Shown here in pieces: positions 5,956-15,850 of a stretch of 64,000 bases of DNA. The translations under genes and the position numbers were made by a program. Where the stretch lies: the NCBI RefSeq assembly GCF_900114705.1, contig NZ_FOTW01000011.1:62001-126000 (forward strand), given 5' to 3'. This DNA comes from Rugamonas rubra (GTDB lineage: Bacteria; Pseudomonadota; Gammaproteobacteria; Burkholderiales; Burkholderiaceae_D). The notes under the pieces are model-generated. The model did not search any database, had not been told where the DNA came from, and saw nothing but the letters and a program-made list of their open reading frames with translations. Numbering within the stretch: position 1 is the stretch's first letter; each line of letters starts with the position of its first letter.

Positions 5956-6366
5956 ATGGCTTCATCCAACCAAGGCGGTAAACAAGGTAGCGACCAAGGC
6001 GGCAAACAGGGCAGCGACCAAGGCAGCAAGCAAAGCGACACCAGCAAACGCGGTTTCGCTTCGATGGACCCGGAACAGCAGCGCGAGATCGCCAGCGAGG
6101 GCGGCCGCGCCGCCCATGAAAAGGGCACGGCCCACGAGTTCACCTCGGAGGAGGCACGCCGGGCCGGCAGCATGAGCCACAAGAACGACCAGGGCAGCAG
6201 CCAGAGCAGCACCCCCGGCGGCGCCTCGCGCTCGGGCGGCACGGCCGGCAACCAGGGCAGCGCGCGCGAGCGCGAAGAGGAAGACAAGCAACGCAGTGGC
6301 CAAACCGGCGGCCAAACCGGCGGCCAGGGCGGCAGCCGTTCCGGCGGTTCGGGGTCGAAAACCTGA
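5956..6366 (+). CDS. KGG-repeat stress protein (YciG/Con-10 type)
   Basis: A 136-residue very hydrophilic protein. The KGG signature is in the middle: RGFASMDPEQQREIASEGG, then AAHEKGTAHEFTSEEARRAG. It is flanked by Gly/Gln/Ser-rich tracts with repeats of the type GGKQGSDQ at the N-terminus and GQTGGQTGGQ at the C-terminus. The ATG at 5956 is preceded by AGGAGAAAG at normal spacing; an in-frame upstream start would add 37 unsupported residues. Proteins of this group are linked to general stress, desiccation or sporulation-like states in other bacteria; the biochemical role is unknown. It is a single gene with about 200 bp of non-coding sequence before it. Confidence 0.85.
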   Translation: MASSNQGGKQGSDQGGKQGSDQGSKQSDTSKRGFASMDPEQQREIASEGGRAAHEKGTAHEFTSEEARRAGSMSHKNDQGSSQSSTPGGASRSGGTAGNQGSAREREEEDKQRSGQTGGQTGGQGGSRSGGSGSKT

Positions 6367-6604: not shown

Positions 6605-6636
6605 TTGACTTCGCAAATGATAATCATTATCATTTG
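6605..6636 (+). promoter_or_regulatory. Sigma-70 promoter overlapped by a perfect Fur box
   Basis: TTGACT (6605-6610) and TATCAT (6628-6633) are spaced by 17 bp. Across the spacer and -10 lies TGATAATCATTATCA (6618-6632), a perfect 7-1-7 Fur motif. The dyad extends without mismatch to 6614-6636. Iron-loaded Fur bound here would block polymerase directly. The first gene downstream starts at 6706. Confidence 0.9.
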
Positions 6637-6705
6637 TCACTGATCGCGCCGCCGGCCCGCCGGCCGCCGCCGTTTCCACCTGTACCCATCACCAAAGGAT
6701 GTCCC

Positions 6706-7353
6706 TTGAGCGCACCACAAGCCGCGCCAGCCCGCAACGCCAGCCGCGCCGTCTGGCTGAAGAACCTGCACCAGTGGCACTGGATCAGCTCGGCGCTGTG
6801 CCTGCTCGGCATGCTGCTGTTCAGCGTCACCGGCATCACCCTGAACCACGCCGCGCAGATCGAGGCCAAGCCCAGCGTGACGCGCCAGCAGGCCGCCCTG
6901 CCGGCGCCGCTGGCGGCCAGCCTGGCGGCCTACGCCGCCGCGCACGACGGTGAGCGCGCCGCGCTGCCGGCCGCCGCCGAGCAGTGGCTGCGCGACACCT
7001 GGTCGCTGAAGGCCGGCGGCCGCCCGGCCGAGTGGTCGGCCGACGAGGTCTACCTGCCGCTGGCCAAGGCCGGCGGCGACGCCTGGGTGCGCATCGCCCT
7101 GCCGGACGGCGCCGCCGAGTACGAGAACACCGACCGTGGCTGGATCTCCTGGCTCAACGACGTCCACAAGGGCCGCAACACCGGCCCGGCCTGGAACTGG
7201 TTCATCGACATCTTCGCCGGCACCTGCCTGCTGTTCTGCCTGACCGGCCTGTTGATCTTGAAGTTCCACGCCGCCAACCGGCCGTTCACCTGGCCGATGG
7301 TCGGCCTGGGCATCCTGGTTCCGTGTGCGATCGCGCTGTTGTTCATCCATTGA
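6706..7353 (+). CDS. PepSY-associated transmembrane protein (PepSY_TM_like_2)
   Basis: A 215-residue inner-membrane protein. It has one N-terminal membrane helix (about 22-42, ALCLLGMLLFSVTGITLN), a periplasmic region of about 110 residues, and two C-terminal helices (about 160-180 and 190-213). Conserved His/Trp clusters (LHQWHW near the first helix, NDVHKGRNTGPAWNW before the second) are typical of the family and could bind haem or quinone. The start is TTG at 6706 with AAAGGA upstream; earlier in-frame codons lie within the promoter. It is the first gene of the Fur-controlled unit and probably carries electrons across the membrane to the periplasmic DUF2271 protein encoded next. That role is inferred from family and context. 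Confidence 0.85.
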   Translation: MSAPQAAPARNASRAVWLKNLHQWHWISSALCLLGMLLFSVTGITLNHAAQIEAKPSVTRQQAALPAPLAASLAAYAAAHDGERAALPAAAEQWLRDTWSLKAGGRPAEWSADEVYLPLAKAGGDAWVRIALPDGAAEYENTDRGWISWLNDVHKGRNTGPAWNWFIDIFAGTCLLFCLTGLLILKFHAANRPFTWPMVGLGILVPCAIALLFIH

Positions 7354-7383
7354 TTTTTCCATTCCTCTTTTGACAGGCACCCC

Positions 7384-7899
7384 ATGAAATTACGCTACTC
7401 CATCGCGCTCAGCATGCCGCTGATCAGCGCCTCGGCCATGGCGGCCGATCTGGCCCTCAAGCTCGAAGTCCCGCAACTGAACGTGGCCGAGTACCACCGT
7501 CCCTACCTGGCCGCCTGGCTGGAGAACGCCGACCAGAAGGTGGTGGCCAACCTGGCCGTGCTGTACGACGTCAAGAAGAAGGACAACGCCGGCACCAAGT
7601 GGCTCAAGGACATGCGCCAGTGGTGGCGCAAGAGCGGCCGCGACGTCGAGATGCCGCTCGACGGCGTCTCCGGCGCGACCAAGGCGCCGGGCGAGTACAC
7701 GCTGAGCTTCCCGGTCGCCAAGGCCGCGCTCGACAAGCTGCCGGCCGGCCAGTACCAGCTGGTCGTTGAAGCGGCGCGCGAGGCCGGTGGCCGCGAGGCC
7801 GTCAAGGTGCCGCTGCAGTGGCCGCCGAAAACCGCGCAGAGCCTGGCCGCCAAGGGCAAGGAAGAACTGGGCGCCGTCGTAGTTCAACTCAAGCCTTAA
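7384..7899 (+). CDS. Periplasmic DUF2271 protein with an ApbE-type flavinylation motif
   Basis: A 171-residue protein with a cleavable signal peptide (about 1-21, ending SAMAA) and a DUF2271 domain covering the rest. Residues 93-100 read DGVSGATK, matching the D-x-x-S/T-G-A-T/S consensus at which ApbE attaches FMN covalently; Thr99 is the expected acceptor. The ApbE gene lies two genes downstream, which supports the reading. It is thus probably a periplasmic flavoprotein electron carrier working with the PepSY membrane protein upstream. Spacing to both neighbours is short (30 and 9 bp), consistent with one operon. No direct evidence shows what it reduces; ferric complexes are the simplest guess given the Fur box. 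Confidence 0.87.
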   Translation: MKLRYSIALSMPLISASAMAADLALKLEVPQLNVAEYHRPYLAAWLENADQKVVANLAVLYDVKKKDNAGTKWLKDMRQWWRKSGRDVEMPLDGVSGATKAPGEYTLSFPVAKAALDKLPAGQYQLVVEAAREAGGREAVKVPLQWPPKTAQSLAAKGKEELGAVVVQLKP

Positions 7900-7908
7900 G
7901 GCCGGATC

Positions 7909-8733
7909 ATGAAAAAATTGAATAAACCGTTGTTGGCGCTGGCCTTGGCCGGCCTGGCCCTGAACGCCCAGGCGCACCGTCCCTGGCTGCTGCCGTCGTC
8001 GACCCAGGTCGACGCCAAGGAGGCCTGGGTCACCATCGACGCCGCCATCTCCGAGGGCCTGTTCGACATCGACCACCAGCCGCTCAAGCTCGACGGCATC
8101 GTCGCCACCGGCCCGGACGGCGCCCGCGTCAACCTCGACAACGCCAGCACCGGCAAGCTGCGCAGCACCTTCGACCTGCGCCTGGCCAAGCCGGGCACCT
8201 ACAAGATCAGCCTGGTGTCGCAGGGCGTGTTCGGCAGCTACAAGGACAAGGCCGGCGACATGAAGCGCTTCCGTGGCAGCGAGGAAAGCCTGGCCAAGGA
8301 CGTGCCGGCCGACGCCACCGACGTCAAGCTGACGCGCAACTACAGCCGCCTGGAAACCTTCGTCTCGACCGGCACGCCGAACGAGGCGGTGTTCAAACCG
8401 AGCGGCGTCGGCCTCGAGCTGGTGCCCGTCACCCACCCGAACGACATGCGCAGCGGCGAGCGCGCCACCTGGCGCTTCCTGCTCGACGGCAAGCCGGCGG
8501 CCAACCAGGCCTTCAGCCTGATCCCCGGCGGCGTGCGCCACCGCGGCACGCTGGGCGAGATCCGCCAGAGCACCGACGCCAAGGGCGAGATCAGCTTCGA
8601 GCTGCCGGCCGCCGGCATGTACATGGTCAGCAGCAGCTGGCCGGTGGCCGCCCCGGCCGCCGCCGGCACGCCGCCGGCGGCGCCGGCGCGCCGCGTGACC
8701 TACGCGGCCACCGTCGAAGTGCTGCCGCAATAG
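7909..8733 (+). CDS. Periplasmic DUF4198 protein
   Basis: A 274-residue exported protein: signal peptide 1-22 (LALAGLALNAQA), then a mature start HRPWLLPSST typical of DUF4198/CbiK-like proteins, whose N-terminal His is a candidate metal ligand. The rest looks like beta-rich Ig-like folds, with a Pro/Ala-rich tail. It begins 9 bp after the DUF2271 gene, and its stop overlaps the first base of the apbE start, so the genes are translationally coupled. Family members commonly accompany TonB receptors and metal-uptake genes; a role in binding the metal or holding the substrate near the flavoprotein is plausible but unproven. Confidence 0.85.
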   Translation: MKKLNKPLLALALAGLALNAQAHRPWLLPSSTQVDAKEAWVTIDAAISEGLFDIDHQPLKLDGIVATGPDGARVNLDNASTGKLRSTFDLRLAKPGTYKISLVSQGVFGSYKDKAGDMKRFRGSEESLAKDVPADATDVKLTRNYSRLETFVSTGTPNEAVFKPSGVGLELVPVTHPNDMRSGERATWRFLLDGKPAANQAFSLIPGGVRHRGTLGEIRQSTDAKGEISFELPAAGMYMVSSSWPVAAPAAAGTPPAAPARRVTYAATVEVLPQ

Positions 8734-9914
8734 TGGGCGCGGCGGGCATGGCGGGTGGGCCGGCGGTGGCGTCGGCCTTGTTGGCGGGGCCGGGCGAACG
8801 CCGCGTGCTGCTGCCGGCGCACATCGCCGAGCAGGCGGCGCCGGCGCACGGCGCCATCCGCGACTTCGCCGGCGTCAGCATGGGCACCGGCTGGTCGGTG
8901 CGGCTGGTCGACCACGGCCGCGCCGCCACCTTGCCGCCGCGTTTGCAACAGGGCCTGCAGGGCCAGCTCGACCAGGTGGTGGCGCAAATGAGCCACTGGG
9001 AGAGCGACTCCGACCTGGGCCGCTTCAACCTGGCCGAGGCCGGCAGCTGGCAGCGCCTGCCCGAGGAATTCTTCACCGTGCTGGCCTTCGCCATGCGCGT
9101 CGCCCGCGACACGGGCGACGCCTACGACCCCTGCGCCGGCGCCATGGTCAACCTGTGGGGCTTCGGCCCCGCCGGCGGCTTCGAGCGGCCCGGCTTCGCG
9201 CCGCCGGACGCCGCCCAGGTGGCGCGGCTGCTGGAGCGGCGGCGCCAGGCCAGGGTCGAACTCGACCATGCCGGCCGGCGCGCCCGCCAGCCGGGTGGCG
9301 TGCTGCTCGACTTGTCGGCCGTTGCCAAGGGCTACGGCGTCGACCGCTTGGCCGAGTACCTGGAGGCGCAGGGCATCCGCCACTACCTGGTCGAGGTCGG
9401 CGGCGAGCTGCGCGGCGCCGGCGTCAAGCCGGACGGCCAGCCGTGGTGGGTGGCGCTGGAACAGCCCGGAGCGAGCACGGCCGGTATGGCGCCGAGCGTC
9501 GCCGCCCTGTCCGCCGCTGCGCCGGCCGGGCCGGCCGCCGCCGCCGCGTCCGCCGGTGGCGAGCTGGTGCTGGCGCTGCACGGCTTGGCCGTGGCCACCT
9601 CGGGCGATTACCGGCGCTACTTCAACGCCGACGCGGCCGACCTGTCGTCGCCCGCGCATACCCAGCCGCAACGCTATTCCCACACCATCGATCCGCGCAG
9701 CGGCATGCCGATCACCAATCAATTGGCCTCGGTGACGGTGGTGCATGCCCAGTGCATGGCCGCCGACGCCTGGTCCACCGCGCTCACCGTGCTCGGCCCC
9801 GAGGCCGGCCTGGCGCTGGCCGACCGGCTCGGCCTGGCCGCCCGCTTCGTGCTGCGCACGCCGGACGGCTGCGCCGAACGCTTGAGCGCGGCCTTCCAAC
9901 AGATGCTCGCATGA
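8733..9914 (+). CDS. apbE: FAD:protein FMN transferase (ApbE)
   Basis: A 393-residue member of the ApbE family, which moves FMN from FAD to a Thr/Ser on exported proteins using Mg2+. Family marks in order: SMGTGWSVRL, DLSAVAKGYGVDRLAEYL, VEVGGELRGAG, LAVATSGDYRRYF, HTIDPRSGMPI and AADAWSTALTVLG. A Gly/Ala insertion of about 30 residues precedes ELVLALHG. The GTG start at 8733 overlaps the previous stop by one base; ATG at 8748 is an alternative. Export is likely, but the N-terminus is a weak signal sequence without a clear lipobox. Its probable substrate is the DUF2271 protein encoded two genes earlier. The stop overlaps the next start (ATGA). Confidence 0.93.
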   Translation: MGAAGMAGGPAVASALLAGPGERRVLLPAHIAEQAAPAHGAIRDFAGVSMGTGWSVRLVDHGRAATLPPRLQQGLQGQLDQVVAQMSHWESDSDLGRFNLAEAGSWQRLPEEFFTVLAFAMRVARDTGDAYDPCAGAMVNLWGFGPAGGFERPGFAPPDAAQVARLLERRRQARVELDHAGRRARQPGGVLLDLSAVAKGYGVDRLAEYLEAQGIRHYLVEVGGELRGAGVKPDGQPWWVALEQPGASTAGMAPSVAALSAAAPAGPAAAAASAGGELVLALHGLAVATSGDYRRYFNADAADLSSPAHTQPQRYSHTIDPRSGMPITNQLASVTVVHAQCMAADAWSTALTVLGPEAGLALADRLGLAARFVLRTPDGCAERLSAAFQQMLA

Positions 9915-11275
9915 ACTTCACCAACGATCCGACCCGGCTGCTGTTGCTGGCCGGCCTGGCCCTGGCCTACGCCCTGGTCTGCCTGCTGCCCTACCTGCGC
10001 CAGCGGCACAAACGCCGGGCCGCGCTGCTGGCGCGCGCCCAGGCCGGCCAGAGTCCGGCCTGGCTGGTGGCCTACGCCAGCCAGACCGGCAACGCCGAGC
10101 AGCTGGCGCGCCAAACCCACGCCACGCTGGCGTTGGCCGGCATCGCCGCCCGCCTGTGCGAGCTGTCCGAGCTGACGGCGGCCGAGCTGCAGGGCGCCGA
10201 GCGCGCGCTGTTCCTGGTCAGCACCTACGGCGAGGGCGACGCGCCCGACGCCGGCGCCGCCTTCGCCCAGCGCCTGCTGGGCGGCGAGCTGGCGCTGGGC
10301 CAGTTGCACTACGCCGTGCTGGCGCTGGGCGACCGCGCCTACAAGCACTACTGTGGCTTCGGCCGCGCGCTCGACCATTGGCTGGCCGGGCAGGGCGCCC
10401 GGGCGCTGTTCCCGCGCATCGAGGTCGACCGCAGCGCCGAGGCCGCCATCGCCCAATGGCGCCAGCAACTGAGCCACCTGGCCGGCACCAGCGACGCGCC
10501 CGACTGGGCCGCGCCGGCCTTCGCCGGCTGGCGCCTGGCCGAGCGGCGCCTGCTCAATCCGGGCAGCGCCGGCGCGCCGCTCTACCATCTGGAGCTGGAG
10601 CCGCAGTCGGGCGCGCTGCCGGACTGGCAGTCGGGCGACCTGGTGCAGGTGGCCGCGCCGGCCGAGCCGGACCGGCCGCGCGAATACTCGATCGCCTCGG
10701 TGCCGGCCGACGGCCGCGTGCACCTGCTGGTGCGCCTGCTGCGCCACCCGGACGGCACGGCCGGCCTGGCCTCCGGCTGGCTGTGCCTGCAGGCGGCGCC
10801 GGGCGAGGTGCTGCCGCTGCGCCTGCGGCCGCACCGCCGCTTCCGCCTGGAGGACAACGCCGAGCTGCCGCTGATCCTGATCGGCAACGGCAGCGGCATC
10901 GCCGGCCTGCGCGGCCACCTGCGCGCCTGCGCCCTGGCCGGCCGGGGCCGCGTCTGGTTGCTGTTCGGCGAGCGCAACGCCGCCTTCGACGCCCACTACG
11001 CCGACGAGCTGGCCGGCTGGCGCGAGACCGGCCTGCTCGAGCGCCTCGACCTGGTCTACTCGCGCGACCAGCCGCAGCGCCGCTACGTGCAGGACCGCCT
11101 GGCCGAGCAGGGCGCGGCGCTGCGCGACTGGGTCGCGCGCGGCGCCGCGCTGTACGTCTGCGGCAGCCTGGACGGCATGGCCGCCGGCGTCGACCGCGTC
11201 CTGCGCGAGCAGCTGGGCGGCGCCGCGCTGGACGCGCTGGCGGCCGCCGGGCGCTACCGGCGCGATGTCTACTAA
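9911..11275 (+). CDS. Membrane-anchored flavodoxin/FNR reductase (CysJ-like)
   Basis: A 454-residue diflavin reductase. An N-terminal helix (about 10-28, LLLLAGLALAYALVCLLPYL) followed by basic residues anchors it with the catalytic part in the cytoplasm. Flavodoxin domain about 48-190 (YASQTGNAEQLA, STYGEGDAPD, LGDRAYKHYCGFG). FNR domain about 205-454: FAD motif REYSIAS, NADPH motif GNGSGIAGLRGHL, YVCGSLDGMA, and a C-terminal aromatic residue (RRDVY). It resembles the flavoprotein of sulfite reductase, but no sulfite reductase haemoprotein is nearby. As last gene of the Fur-controlled unit it most likely feeds NADPH electrons to the PepSY membrane protein. ATGA overlap with apbE. Confidence 0.9.
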   Translation: MNFTNDPTRLLLLAGLALAYALVCLLPYLRQRHKRRAALLARAQAGQSPAWLVAYASQTGNAEQLARQTHATLALAGIAARLCELSELTAAELQGAERALFLVSTYGEGDAPDAGAAFAQRLLGGELALGQLHYAVLALGDRAYKHYCGFGRALDHWLAGQGARALFPRIEVDRSAEAAIAQWRQQLSHLAGTSDAPDWAAPAFAGWRLAERRLLNPGSAGAPLYHLELEPQSGALPDWQSGDLVQVAAPAEPDRPREYSIASVPADGRVHLLVRLLRHPDGTAGLASGWLCLQAAPGEVLPLRLRPHRRFRLEDNAELPLILIGNGSGIAGLRGHLRACALAGRGRVWLLFGERNAAFDAHYADELAGWRETGLLERLDLVYSRDQPQRRYVQDRLAEQGAALRDWVARGAALYVCGSLDGMAAGVDRVLREQLGGAALDALAAAGRYRRDVY

Positions 11276-11683
11276 TTGCAACAACGATAAAATCCGCGAT
11301 TCCATCTATACGGCTATTGCCAATAATCTAAAAATATTCTTCCGCGATTATATGGATATGCATATTTTGTATATGTAAAATGTAATTTCTCCAAACTTAT
11401 CATGTTTGTACTTATTTTGTATCCAAAATGTAAATAAAACGCGCAAAGTCGTTCACACATCGTGTCATTTTGGCGACATAATCGCCCGCTGTTGAGCAAT
11501 AGGGCGACTCTTGTCGCGCTGTGTCCTCTTCCTCGTCACACCCTCGAACCGCATCCGCTGGCGCCTTGCCCACAGAATGTCGTCGACATGGCAAGGCAGA
11601 CTGTTTCATGACCCCAGGTTCACCACCCAGGCGGCACGGCTATTGCTCTCGACTTTGTTATTCACACATCGGGAGTATTCTGA
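11276..11683. other. AT-rich intergenic region before the TonB receptor
   Basis: About 400 bp without a supported gene. The first 200 bp (to about 11490) are much more AT-rich than anything nearby, with runs such as ATATGGATATGCATATTTTG. The second half returns toward genomic composition. No Fur box as good as the one at 6618 was found. A GGGAG Shine-Dalgarno at about 11671 serves the receptor start. The promoter and any attenuator presumably lie here. Confidence 0.6.
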
Positions 11684-14434
11684 ATGGTTTTGCAACAAAA
11701 AATTGGCGTGCGTTCGGTCCGCCTCGCCCTGGGCGTCCTGGCGGGCACCGCCATCATCGCCGGCCAGGTCCGCGCGCAAGAGCAGCAGATTCAAAAAGTT
11801 GAAATCACCGGTTCGAGCATCAAGCGCATCGCCGTCGAAGGCGCGCTGCCGGTGCAGCGCCTGTCGCAGGAAGCCATCGCCAAGTCGGGCGCGACCAACG
11901 TCGCCGACCTGATCCAGGCGCTGCCGGCGATGCAGGGCTTCACCATCGCCGCCACCGCCGCCGGCTCCAATTCGGGCGGCCGTGTCTCGGCGTCGATCCA
12001 CAACATCGGCGAGCAGTACACCCTGGTCCTGCTCGACGGCCGCCGCATCGCGCCGTCCGACTCGGGCAGCACGATCAACCTGAATTCGATCCCGATGAGC
12101 GCCGTCGAGCGCGTCGAGATCCTGACCGACGGCGCCTCGGCCCTGTACGGCTCGGACGCCATCGCCGGCGTCATCAACTTCATCCTGAAGAAGAACCAGC
12201 GCGGCGGCACCGTCGAGGCGACCTACAACACCCCGACCGACAGCCGCAAGGGCCAGTCCTACAACACCAGCCTCACCTACGGCGCCGGCAACCTGGAAGA
12301 CGACCGCTTCAACATCATCGCCAGCTACCGCCACGACGAGGCCGGCCCGATCAAGGCGACCGACCGCGACTTCGCCAAGACCGCCTACATCCCGTTCAGC
12401 AACAACGGCAACAACTACATCTACGACCGCACCAGCCCGGTCACCGTGCCGGCCAACGTCGCCGTGGCGTACAAGGGAGACCAGCCGTCGTCGAGCTTCA
12501 GCCCCTACCTGCTGAAGAACGGCAACTGCCCGGCGCTCAGCTACGCCAGCCTGTCGAACAACGCCAACTCGCGCAACTGCTCCTTCGACTTCGCCTCGAC
12601 CGTCGAGATCGTGCCGCAAAACAAGCGCGACAGCTTCTTCACCAAGGCCACCGTCAAGGCCACCGACGACATCGCCGTCTTCGCCTTGGTGGCCCTGTCG
12701 CGCTACGACATGACCGCGCGCATCGCGCCGAACACGGCGCCGTTCGCCATCGACACCAAGTCGGCGCTGTACGCCAACAACGTGCTGCCCTTCCTGACGC
12801 CGGCCCAGGCGGCCGACGTGGCCAAGGTTTCGGGCAGCTACCGCACCTACGACTGGGGCACCCGCGACGCGCAAACCCTGACCGACTCCAACCACCTGGT
12901 GCTGGGCGCCGACGGCGAGATCGGCGCCTGGAGCTTCGGCACCGGCCTGACTTGGTCGCAGAACAAGATCGAGGAACGCTATGTCGGCGGCTACGCGCGC
13001 AGCAAGGAGTTCAAGTCGATGCTGGCCACCGCCGCCTTCGATCCGTTCGCGCTGATCGGCGGCCAGAGCGAGGCCACCAAGGGCCTGATCCAGAACTCGA
13101 AGTTCGTCGGTACGCTGCGCGAGGCCGCGACCACCCTGCGCGGCATCGACGCGCACGCTTCGCGCGAGGTGTTCACCCTGCCGGGCGGCGCCGCCAACAT
13201 CGGCCTGGGCGCCGACTATCGCAAGTACAGCTTCAAGCAGACCCCGGCCGACGCCGCCGTCAACAACGAGATCTACAACGTCAGCGCGCCGGGCGCCTAC
13301 GACATGAGCCGCAACAGCTACGGCCTGTTCAGCGAACTGATCGCCCCGGTGAGCAAGGACCTGGAACTGAGCATGGGCGTCCGCTACGACGCCATCGGCG
13401 CGATCGACGACGACCTGGCCCACCGCACGGTCGGCCAGAAGCAGTCGGCCGGCACCTACAAGGTGTCGGCGCGCTGGCAGCCGGCCAAGACCGTGCTGGT
13501 GCGCGGTTCCTACGGCACCGGCTTCAAGGCGCCGAGCATGTTGGAACTGGCCCAGCCGCTGGTCAGCGCCGGCGTCACCGCCTCGGTGCACGAGTGCCCG
13601 ATCGCCGACAAGGTGCTGTGCCGTCCGGGCGTGGTGCAGTACAACAAGATGAACCTTGGCAACGAGAACCTGAAGCCGGAAAAGTCCAAGCAATACTCGA
13701 TCGGTTTCCGCTACGAGCCGAGCTCGGCCTTCACCATCGGCGCCGACCTGTGGGACGTGCGCATCAAGGACGCCGTCGACTACGTCAGCGAAACGCTGAT
13801 CTTCAACGATCCGGTCAAGTACCGTTCGTTGTTGAGCACCTTCACCGAGCCGTCGACCGGCAACACCTACTGGGCCATGCAGTCGCCGCCGGTCAACCTG
13901 GGCGAGAAGCACAACCGCGGCATCGACTACGATCTGGTGGCACGCCATCGCTACAGCTTCGGCAACCTGACCGCCAACCTGAGCGGCACCTACCTGATGA
14001 AGTCGGAGTACACCGTGCCGGGCGATACCTCGGGCGCTTGGACCTCGAGCCTGAACTACTTCGGCGCGGATGACCAGGTCGCCTTCCGCCACGTCGTGCG
14101 CACCAGCCTGACGCTCGACACCGGCGCGTTGAGCAACACCTTGACGATGAACTACCGCAACGGCTACACCGACGCGGAAGCCTCGGTGCGCAACCTGGGC
14201 ACCAACAAGAACGAGAAGATCCGTTTGCAGGTGCCGTCCTACATCACGCTGGACTGGCAGGGCCGCTTCATGGTCACCAAGACCGCGTCGATCCGCGCCG
14301 GCATCAAGAACCTGTTGAACCGCGAACCGCCGCTGTCGCTGCGCAACTCGTCGGGCCACCAGGTCGGCTTCGATCCGCGCTACGCCGATGCGATGCTGCG
14401 TACCTTCTACGTTACTGGCAACTATCAGTTCTAA
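11684..14434 (+). CDS. TonB-dependent outer-membrane receptor
   Basis: A 916-residue receptor. Signal peptide about 1-31 (ending GQVRAQ), TonB-box/plug start (QKVEITGSSIKR), plug domain about 50-165 (GATNVADLIQALP, VLLDGRRIAP, VERVEILTDGASALYGSDAI, GVINFILKK), then a 22-strand barrel ending in NYQF with the terminal Phe needed for assembly. There is no FecA-type signalling domain and no adjacent sigma/anti-sigma pair. The substrate is not evident. Its position directly after the Fur-controlled reductase unit and opposite hemP suggests a ferric complex or haem. A strong terminator follows at once. Confidence 0.93.
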   Translation: MVLQQKIGVRSVRLALGVLAGTAIIAGQVRAQEQQIQKVEITGSSIKRIAVEGALPVQRLSQEAIAKSGATNVADLIQALPAMQGFTIAATAAGSNSGGRVSASIHNIGEQYTLVLLDGRRIAPSDSGSTINLNSIPMSAVERVEILTDGASALYGSDAIAGVINFILKKNQRGGTVEATYNTPTDSRKGQSYNTSLTYGAGNLEDDRFNIIASYRHDEAGPIKATDRDFAKTAYIPFSNNGNNYIYDRTSPVTVPANVAVAYKGDQPSSSFSPYLLKNGNCPALSYASLSNNANSRNCSFDFASTVEIVPQNKRDSFFTKATVKATDDIAVFALVALSRYDMTARIAPNTAPFAIDTKSALYANNVLPFLTPAQAADVAKVSGSYRTYDWGTRDAQTLTDSNHLVLGADGEIGAWSFGTGLTWSQNKIEERYVGGYARSKEFKSMLATAAFDPFALIGGQSEATKGLIQNSKFVGTLREAATTLRGIDAHASREVFTLPGGAANIGLGADYRKYSFKQTPADAAVNNEIYNVSAPGAYDMSRNSYGLFSELIAPVSKDLELSMGVRYDAIGAIDDDLAHRTVGQKQSAGTYKVSARWQPAKTVLVRGSYGTGFKAPSMLELAQPLVSAGVTASVHECPIADKVLCRPGVVQYNKMNLGNENLKPEKSKQYSIGFRYEPSSAFTIGADLWDVRIKDAVDYVSETLIFNDPVKYRSLLSTFTEPSTGNTYWAMQSPPVNLGEKHNRGIDYDLVARHRYSFGNLTANLSGTYLMKSEYTVPGDTSGAWTSSLNYFGADDQVAFRHVVRTSLTLDTGALSNTLTMNYRNGYTDAEASVRNLGTNKNEKIRLQVPSYITLDWQGRFMVTKTASIRAGIKNLLNREPPLSLRNSSGHQVGFDPRYADAMLRTFYVTGNYQF

Positions 14435-14542: not shown

Positions 14543-15850
14543 CTATTCGGTGGCCGTCTCCAGGCCGCGCGCCAGGCTGGAGATGCTCGGGTTGTCGATG
14601 AACACGCAGCGCTTGCCGGTGCGCTTGCAGTGGTCCTTGACGCGCCAGTAGGCGCTGTGGCTGATGCAGCCGGTCTGGCAGATCACCAGGTCGGCCGCCG
14701 CCAGGCTGGCGTCGAGCTGGTTGGCGTTGTCCTCCAGGCCGCCGTCGTGGTGGGCGAACTGGGCGCCGCCGCGCTCGATCAGCTCGCGGTAGGTCGCCAC
14801 GTTGCCGCTGCGCCCGCCCACGCACAGCACGCTCTGGTCGCGCAGGCGCAGCGGCATGCGCACCACCTGCTCGGCCGGCGCCACGGCGGCCGGCGCCGGC
14901 GCCGCCGGACGCGCCGCCGGCTCGGCGCGCGCCGCCAGCTTCAGCTCGGTGATCTGCTCGCGCAGCGCGCGCTCGCGCTGCTCCATCTGCTGCAGCCGCT
15001 CGGCCAGGCGGGCGCGCGACGCCAGCCCGGGAATCGCGCCGCGCAGCTCGGCCAGCTCGGCGCGCAGCGAGTCGATCATGCTGTCCCGGCCGACCAGGTG
15101 GGCGCGCAGCTGCATCTGCTGGGTGGCGTGCAGCCCGGCCTGGGCGGTCTTCTCGGCCAGCAGGGCGGCGGCGCGCTGGCGCGCCTTGTCGAGCTGGTGC
15201 TGCAGCTCGCGGTTCTCGGCCAAGGTGGCCTGGAACTTGCCCAGGTCGGCGCGCACGCAGGCGCCGGCCTGGTGCTGCACCATGTGCAGGTCGCGGCACA
15301 TCTGCTCCTCCAGCTCGGCGCTGCAGCGCGGATGGCTGAGTCCGGCCCAGAAGGCGCCGGCGACGTCGCCCGCTTCCACGGCGGCGCGCCACAGCGCGGC
15401 CAGCTGGGCGCTGTCGCGCGCGCCGCGATAGCGCAGCAGCACCGCCGCGTAGCGCCGTTCCAGCTCCTTTTGCAGCGCCTCGGACAGACGGTTGCGGCTG
15501 CCGCACTCGGTCACCGCGCCAACGTGCACCTCGTAGTCGTCGGCCAGCACCTTGCCGCCGCTGACCTTGTCGACCAGCTTGCGCAGCACGCCCAGCGGCA
15601 GGCCGACGCCGACCAGCGGGCAGTGGCAGGCGTGGCCCAGCTCCCACAGGCGGCGCCGGCGCGAGGCCAGCGCCGGTTCGAGGGCGCTGGCGACGTTGTG
15701 GATCAGCGGCGCGCCGCTCGGGGCATCGCGCCGCGCGCCGCGCGGGGAGTCGGCTGGCCCGGCGTGTTTCTCGCCGTGCCGATGGGCGTGCTTATCATCG
15801 TGCTTATCGTCGTGATTATTGTCGTGATTCTTGTCGTGTTTATCGCACAT
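14543..15850 (-). CDS. DUF2325 protein with His-rich N-terminus and coiled coil
   Basis: A 435-residue cytoplasmic protein. Residues about 4-28 are a His/Asp/Lys/Asn-rich run (HDKNHDNNHDDKHDDKH and onward) that should bind transition metals. A helical region with several Cys (HACHCPLVGVG, SHPRCSAELEEQMCRDLH) follows. A long coiled coil spans about 215-310. The C-terminal DUF2325 domain (about 340-430) contains VLCVGGRSGN, HHDGGLEDN, ICQTGCISHSAYWRVKDHC and CVFIDNPSISS. The function is not established; DUF2325 proteins are often encoded next to hemP and iron genes. It is last in a unit behind hemP and a 110-residue protein and faces the TonB receptor. Confidence 0.85.
   Translation of the reverse strand: MCDKHDKNHDNNHDDKHDDKHAHRHGEKHAGPADSPRGARRDAPSGAPLIHNVASALEPALASRRRRLWELGHACHCPLVGVGLPLGVLRKLVDKVSGGKVLADDYEVHVGAVTECGSRNRLSEALQKELERRYAAVLLRYRGARDSAQLAALWRAAVEAGDVAGAFWAGLSHPRCSAELEEQMCRDLHMVQHQAGACVRADLGKFQATLAENRELQHQLDKARQRAAALLAEKTAQAGLHATQQMQLRAHLVGRDSMIDSLRAELAELRGAIPGLASRARLAERLQQMEQRERALREQITELKLAARAEPAARPAAPAPAAVAPAEQVVRMPLRLRDQSVLCVGGRSGNVATYRELIERGGAQFAHHDGGLEDNANQLDASLAAADLVICQTGCISHSAYWRVKDHCKRTGKRCVFIDNPSISSLARGLETATE

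Follow-up and report, generated by a model that had tools for sequence, protein, structure and literature searches.

We analysed a window of 64,000 nucleotides of the Rugamonas rubra genome (contig NZ_FOTW01000011.1, positions 62,001 to 126,000) and describe here a five-gene operon within it, encoding a PepSY membrane protein, DUF2271 and DUF4198 proteins predicted to be exported, the flavin transferase ApbE and a diflavin reductase. Our results make it quite probable that this is a Fur-repressed operon whose products reduce ferric iron or its chelates in the periplasm when iron is scarce. In the proposed mechanism, reduced nicotinamide adenine dinucleotide phosphate (NADPH) would reduce the membrane-anchored diflavin reductase, electrons would pass the inner membrane via the PepSY protein, probably through b-hemes, and would reach flavin mononucleotide (FMN) held covalently on Thr99 of DUF2271, which in turn would reduce Fe(III). 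DUF4198 would bind or pass on the metal, and Fe(II) would be taken up by a ferrous transporter, for example Feo. The FMN would be attached by ApbE, which apparently lacks an export signal, and the TonB-dependent receptor encoded downstream would not be a required component. This reading draws on the genes and their spacing, the Fur box, motifs, conservation and a fusion of PepSY and diflavin domains in a paralogous type of locus, all seen in the sequence, and on what others showed in orthologs, in the passages cited here: Fur regulation (PMC3751524), fitness in ethylenediaminetetraacetic acid (EDTA; PMC12004947) and flavinylation of a DUF2271 (PMC8238504). We infer which way the electrons flow and that Fe(III) accepts them, as well as the topology and the metal bound by DUF4198.

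Predicted Fur control and conservation of the operon

An earlier note on this DNA had described a perfect Fur box ahead of the operon, and this was borne out: the site is a perfect palindrome of 23 base pairs (bp) and lies across the operon promoter. It showed 2 mismatches to a hand-entered 19-position consensus, for which 100 shuffles gave 0 matches. Searching the 6.83-Mb genome with the palindromic pattern at up to 3 mismatches returned 15 places (0 with the reversed pattern as control), among which the operon's own site was the sole one with zero mismatches. On a matrix built from 13 training sites, all from the studied genome and with the sites of the window and of contig C81 excluded, the operon site scored 30.3 and the weakest training site 21.0. 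At 11 of the other 14 sites (all but L008, L009 and L017), 15 neighbouring proteins were selected and scanned. Receptors were found at L004, L006, L007, L010, L014 and L016; FeoA and TonB genes flank L005, L011 has a sigma factor beside it and L012 a di-haem peroxidase. Since the neighbours include receptors, FeoA and TonB, the matrix detects a credible Fur regulon. At L013 (G000:C53:156648) there is another Fur-boxed PepSY_TM protein, possibly a separate siderophore reductase, and one open reading frame with a weak kinase match. The Pfam scan gave no match for the L015 protein or for one L010 reading frame, and another L010 reading frame had no NCBIfam match.

The five genes, from 6706 to 11275, are spaced by 30, 9, -1 and -4 bp and for this reason were taken as a single transcription unit. 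All six genes to which the earlier note had assigned domains, the receptor included, were confirmed by Pfam matches. We then turned to conservation. In a genus sample of 60 genomes, 58 carried DUF2271, with 62 matches in total; of 60 regions taken, 56 were of the main type (type I) and 4 of a second type, and the window brought the main type to 57. All five genes were present in each of these 57 loci (in L097 the contig stops within the diflavin gene), and upstream of PepSY every one of them scored at least 24.8 for a Fur box. By comparison, 1.4% of 3,466 random 430-bp windows from the surveyed loci reached a score of 20, in a background that still holds other strong sites. A phylum sample of 397 genomes contained 81 with a DUF2271 match, 75 of them above the cut-off; 78 loci above the cut-off outside the studied genome were examined together with one genus locus. 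This sample yielded 61 other type I loci, 7 of them fusions, with PepSY nearby in 55, DUF4198 in 56, ApbE in 40 and the diflavin gene in 34. The complete set was present in 24 of the 61, and Fur scores reached at least 20 in 17 and at least 15 in 32. Among the named loci (the best 80 of 413, biased to close relatives), 66 had all five genes and 58 a Fur score of at least 15.

The earlier note had suggested comparing DUF2271 neighbourhoods for linked Fur boxes and receptors. The comparison upheld the box throughout the genus sample, but a receptor was present in only 20 of 55 evaluable loci. Fur control of the operon is thus supported by the box itself and, by analogy, by Fur binding and derepression in the Caulobacter ortholog (PMC3751524), Fur binding being known from Caulobacter only. 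As for the ferric-reductase role proposed earlier, a part in iron assimilation is likely by analogy with the EDTA fitness of Caulobacter (PMC12004947), whereas Fe(III) reduction itself is a presumed step.

Proposed electron route and site of flavinylation

Several histidines of the PepSY protein are invariant among 41 aligned sequences, and we regard it as a putative heme electron conduit, its presumed hemes being probably of the b type. The diflavin protein has a transmembrane helix near residue 7, and its nearest solved chain is CysJ; a helix in the N-terminal region is shared by 75 of the 91 type I proteins of this kind. An SR..YVQ motif, which we take to be of the NADPH type, reads SRD..YVQ in the operon's protein and occurs in 54/57 genus, 31/33 other and 70/73 named type I proteins. 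Many relatives, at several loci within L107-L128 and L211-L264, have a diflavin protein whose flavodoxin and FNR parts align separately, with an additional segment between them; the window's protein has no such segment.

A second, divergent DUF2271 (type II) was found at 22 loci. In 21 of these a longer reading frame ends in the diflavin domain, preceded by membrane helices; L178 is the sole locus without helices ahead of the domain. Pfam identified PepSY_TM, Flavodoxin_1 and NAD_binding_1 in the two fusions scanned (L101 and L167). PepSY and diflavin parts thus form one chain in type II and two here, which is a strong sign that they work together. The SR..YVQ motif is scarce in the type II fusions (9/21), so that the cosubstrate there may differ. 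Taken together, the fusions and the motif support the electron route that had been proposed, with the diflavin reductase as a dedicated donor that would pass electrons to PepSY. One type II locus, L101:6803-10426 (G000:C27, minus strand), lies on another contig of the studied genome and is its second DUF2271 system; it has a DUF2271 with an SGAS motif, a single-chain PepSY-flavodoxin-FNR protein and an ApbE without a signal.

Among the five operon proteins, DUF2271 alone has a [ST]GA[ST] motif, SGAT at residues 96-99, ending in the invariant Thr99. As in PepSY flavinylation systems, a PepSY_TM gene (PF03929/PF16357) is no more than five genes away from ApbE or DUF2271, and the substrate combines the motif with an export signal by the hydrophobic-core test described below. 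The DUF2271 of A. ursilacus, co-expressed with its own ApbE in E. coli, was flavinylated at the same motif (PMC8238504, in the passage cited); by analogy, we infer covalent FMN on Thr99. In a natural PepSY-DUF2271 fusion (L151), DUF2271 follows the third helix and is periplasmic by a positive-inside reading. With its export-type N-terminus, DUF2271 is therefore read as periplasmic.

ApbE gave a different picture. Export signals were assessed by simple hydrophobicity tests rather than SignalP. A stricter test misses weak signals, passing only 20 of 57 genus DUF2271 proteins, and we therefore devised a core test, which accepts ATG starts only and requires a core of at least 12 residues. In the genus this test passed 1/57 ApbEs, as against 57/57 for both DUF2271 and DUF4198; the figures were 5/74 against 77/80 and 79/80 for the named loci, and 4/34 against 45/54 and 52/53 for the other type I loci. 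Type II ApbEs passed in 0/19 cases and fused ApbE-DUF2271 proteins in 6/6; ApbE rows without a usable ATG numbered 4/57 in the genus, 12/34 in the other, 13/74 in the named and 5/19 in the type II set. For ApbE, in the same order of sets, a laxer limit of 10 residues gave 1/57, 5/34, 12/74 and 1/19, and the stricter test 0/57, 4/34, 6/74 and 0/19. Of 91 type I ApbEs, 7 had an N-terminal hydrophobic 12-residue stretch by a start-independent test. The window's ApbE is the single genus protein that passes: from the internal ATG at 8748 it has a 13-residue core with no positive residue ahead and Arg-Arg behind. On the whole, these simple tests gave it no recognisable lipobox or N-terminal export signal of a lipoprotein-type ApbE, a feature absent from the earlier note. 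The passing cores of L111, L112, L118, L225, L248 and L263 extend into the ApbE domain. A convincing lipoprotein-type signal in the L125 ApbE counts against a strict leaderless rule, and both arrangements therefore occur. This ApbE is nested in an otherwise mostly leaderless clade, and its signal has possibly been regained.

In a quick tree of 66 ApbE rows (38 type I, most genus rows left out; its branches are long and the positions of outsiders unsure), type I and type II formed one clade, apart from the fused ApbEs and from three others of the studied genome. That genome has five ApbE matches in all, those on C43 and C78 with export-type N-termini and that on C46 without. An N-terminal motif, R[VIT][LVI][LIV]P, was present in 57/57 genus, 10/34 other and 45/74 named type I ApbEs, and in 0/25 type II and fused ApbEs and 0/2,320 control windows; this RVLxP motif may dock ApbE to its partner. 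We tentatively propose, while giving it somewhat less than even odds, that DUF2271 systems have a dedicated, mostly leaderless ApbE clade which attaches FMN in the cytosol, so that the flavin would cross the membrane covalently bound. This would reverse the usual order, in which export is followed by the action of a periplasmic ApbE, and periplasmic flavin adenine dinucleotide would be unneeded. The term 'signal peptide-truncated' for the A. ursilacus ApbE in the cited passage of PMC8238504 conflicts with a leaderless reading. In the text passages covered by our literature search, we found no mention of a leaderless ApbE paired with an exported DUF2271. If the localisation of ApbE holds, how an exported protein receives its flavin from a non-exported enzyme becomes a testable question.

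The downstream receptor and rival explanations

The TonB-dependent receptor, placed directly downstream by the earlier note and cast there as a dedicated partner, does lie downstream, but after a gap of low GC content (45%, against 67% for the window). Were it a partner, the locus would serve ferri-siderophore uptake, the receptor importing the complex that DUF2271 reduces, an explanation we hold to be improbable. Linkage first spoke for it. The receptor search scored 15 candidates per genome and listed matches at E<=1e-200, which were found in 39 of 60 genus genomes; among the matches listed, a clade of 23 proteins from 21 genomes shares at least 59% identity (the next have at most 46%); with the exception of the G007 member, all of them (22/23, in 20/21 genomes) lie close to the operon. 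Upstream of the operon, too, receptors occur, at 8 of the 61 other type I loci as well as at 3 loci of Herbaspirillum and 2 of Stutzerimonas. In addition, a published figure of 231 PepSY clusters is given for those with a TonB receptor, listed as PF03544 (PMC8238504, section 11); since PF03544 is TonB_C in Pfam, this count may refer to TonB proteins instead. The case was weakened by synteny, gain and loss, and the absent Fur box. A block of KGG, operon, DUF2325, FNR and response regulator is conserved with or without the receptor between operon and DUF2325 (DUF2325 in 19/20 receptor-bearing and 34/37 receptor-less genus loci), and adjacency is therefore expected from synteny. The receptor is present in 20 of 57 genus loci, L097 and L105 ending before its slot. 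On a quick tree from the concatenated operon proteins, all five included, it changed 12 times over the 57 loci, 11 of these forced by well-supported branches, and 11 times over the 55 evaluable loci, while the operon was retained. Its presence is more clustered on the tree than in most shuffles (4/500 as low), as shared ancestry would give. No Fur box was found in the gap, where the best score was -3.3, or in any of the 20 receptor gaps of the genus, where the best was 12.4, below the weakest training site. The full-length receptor scored 72.3 bits on TIGR01783 (curated cut-off 223.5) and 127 on the TonB-hemin model (cut-off 316.9); four partial Fur-boxed receptors of the studied genome scored 123-208 on TIGR01783, below the cut-off because partial. 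The receptor, tightly linked as its clade is, is thus probably merely a neighbour and not integral to the operon. Its relatives in the studied genome number 43 matches, some being pieces of one protein. The closest relative in the genus sample (L071:10207-19412) has three tandem receptors in the slot, the last 97% identical to the window's.

The nature of the metal and the target of ApbE invite two further explanations. The operon might act on a different metal (Ni, Zn, Cu or Co) chaperoned by DUF4198, the electron chain setting its redox state and Fur control being secondary. A structural model of DUF4198 matched the metal-binding proteins Zcp (PDB 9MHI-9MHO) and IsDUF4198 (PDB 9GCB) in a fold search, at identities of 18-20%; the sequence profile did not list 9gcb among its matches at E<=0.1. 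The molecule field of the Zcp chains reads phosphoribosylglycinamide formyltransferase, apparently a mislabel. The mature N-terminal His, with cleavage taken after the preceding Ala, was found in 114/114 aligned type I DUF4198 proteins; His1 is invariant and His34 near-invariant, and the two could form a metal site. Some members of its family bind metals, a point absent from the earlier note, and the operon's DUF4198 is predicted to do so. In IsDUF4198, for which a Ni neighbourhood is described, His18 is a Ni ligand, whereas mature residue 18 is Trp here by simple count; the operon setting differs from that neighbourhood, and we regard a Ni-type His brace as a candidate only. Besides, Ni and Zn require no reduction. 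Together with the Fur box in every main-type genus locus and the iron regulation and Fur binding in Caulobacter (PMC3751524, as cited), this leaves another metal the least probable of the explanations we weighed. Another, exported ApbE might instead flavinylate DUF2271, with the operon's ApbE acting on a different cytosolic target. The two other ApbEs with export-type N-termini would fit, and cytosolic ApbEs exist, a Klebsiella example having a cytosolic target according to a review (PMC12052999, in the part cited). We nevertheless think this unlikely: no other protein of the five has the acceptor motif, ApbE is adjacent in 57/57 genus loci, the sampled tree unites the ApbEs of types I and II in one clade, and fused ApbE-DUF2271 proteins exist. 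Periplasmic ferric reduction remains our preferred reading.

The features are collected below. Directly upstream of the operon lies a KGG stress-motif protein (5959-6366, plus strand), which is also near 15/20 receptor-bearing and 32/37 receptor-less genus loci; downstream, the DUF2325 protein (14543-15850, minus strand) is near 53/57 genus loci.

Table. Features of the operon and the downstream receptor gene in window coordinates
Feature	Position	Strand	Remarks
Sigma-70-type promoter TTGACT-17-TATCAT	6605..6633	+	10/12 consensus matches; overlaps Fur box
Fur box, perfect 23-bp palindrome	6614..6636		
PepSY_TM_like_2 membrane protein, 3 transmembrane helices, TTG start	6706..7353	+	PF16357 3.3e-78
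DUF2271, exported flavinylation substrate (predicted)	7384..7899	+	PF10029 1.6e-50; export-type N-terminus
SGAT flavinylation motif, acceptor Thr99 (predicted)	7669..7680	+	Thr99 invariant, 35 aligned
DUF4198, exported beta-sandwich, predicted metal-binding	7909..8733	+	PF10670 2.8e-48
Mature N-terminal His codon of DUF4198	7975-7977	+	
ApbE flavin transferase, without recognisable export signal	8733..9914	+	PF02424 1.1e-76; start GTG 8733 or ATG 8748
RVLLP motif, ApbE N-terminus	8802..8816	+	pattern R[VIT][LVI][LIV]P
Membrane-anchored NADPH diflavin reductase, flavodoxin and FNR-type domains	9911..11275	+	PF00258 4.4e-27, PF00175 8.4e-08
Gap, 408 bp, 45% GC, without Fur box	11276..11683	+	
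TonB-dependent receptor, syntenic but dispensable neighbour	11684..14434	+	Plug 5.3e-21, TonB barrel 1.3e-41

Relation to known systems

Collectively, our comparison concerns a little-characterised but widespread flavinylation cluster that is linked to iron starvation across the genus sample, and points to the diflavin protein as electron donor and to the receptor as dispensable; of most interest are where DUF2271 is flavinylated and which metal DUF4198 handles. Among known systems are the PepSY clusters of Meheust et al. 2021 (PMC8238504), which contain DUF2271, DUF4198 and ApbE, and in some cases TonB genes; these authors described Fur repression and proposed iron reduction. In the passages cited, NAD-binding domains lie within the PepSY genes, unlike the separate anchored diflavin protein here, and a leaderless ApbE with DUF2271 is unmentioned, whereas the ApbE here has no recognisable signal. 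Iron-responsive loci of Alteromonas contain the same DUFs (PMC7190382, as cited). The ferric or siderophore reductases FoxB, VciB and HiuB, of which HiuB is Fur-regulated (PMC12424826, as cited), likewise join a PepSY membrane electron carrier to iron uptake; the operon's PepSY protein resembled FoxB weakly by fold and gave no match to it by sequence profile. In the parts of the literature searched, we found no demonstration of ferric iron reduction by this operon type.

The closest counterpart is Caulobacter crescentus CC_3059-CC_3063 (CCNA_03155-03159), in which the five genes recur in identical order, described as transporter, DUF2271, DUF4198, ApbE and sulfite reductase flavoprotein (PMC3751524). 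In the passages cited, lacZ data showed its promoter to be iron- and Fur-dependent, and Fur bound it in vitro in an electrophoretic mobility shift assay, at a site overlapping -35/-10 as here; transposon mutants of the locus dropped in fitness in EDTA (PMC12004947). These data concern the ortholog and not the Rugamonas rubra strain. In C. segnis (L265) all five genes were recovered in our survey, and a search of the 5 kb around them detected no TonB receptor, unlike at the studied locus. The R. rubra operon has the Caulobacter-type order PepSY-DUF2271-DUF4198-ApbE-diflavin behind one promoter with a Fur site, and is a further member of a system already described in essence in Caulobacter.

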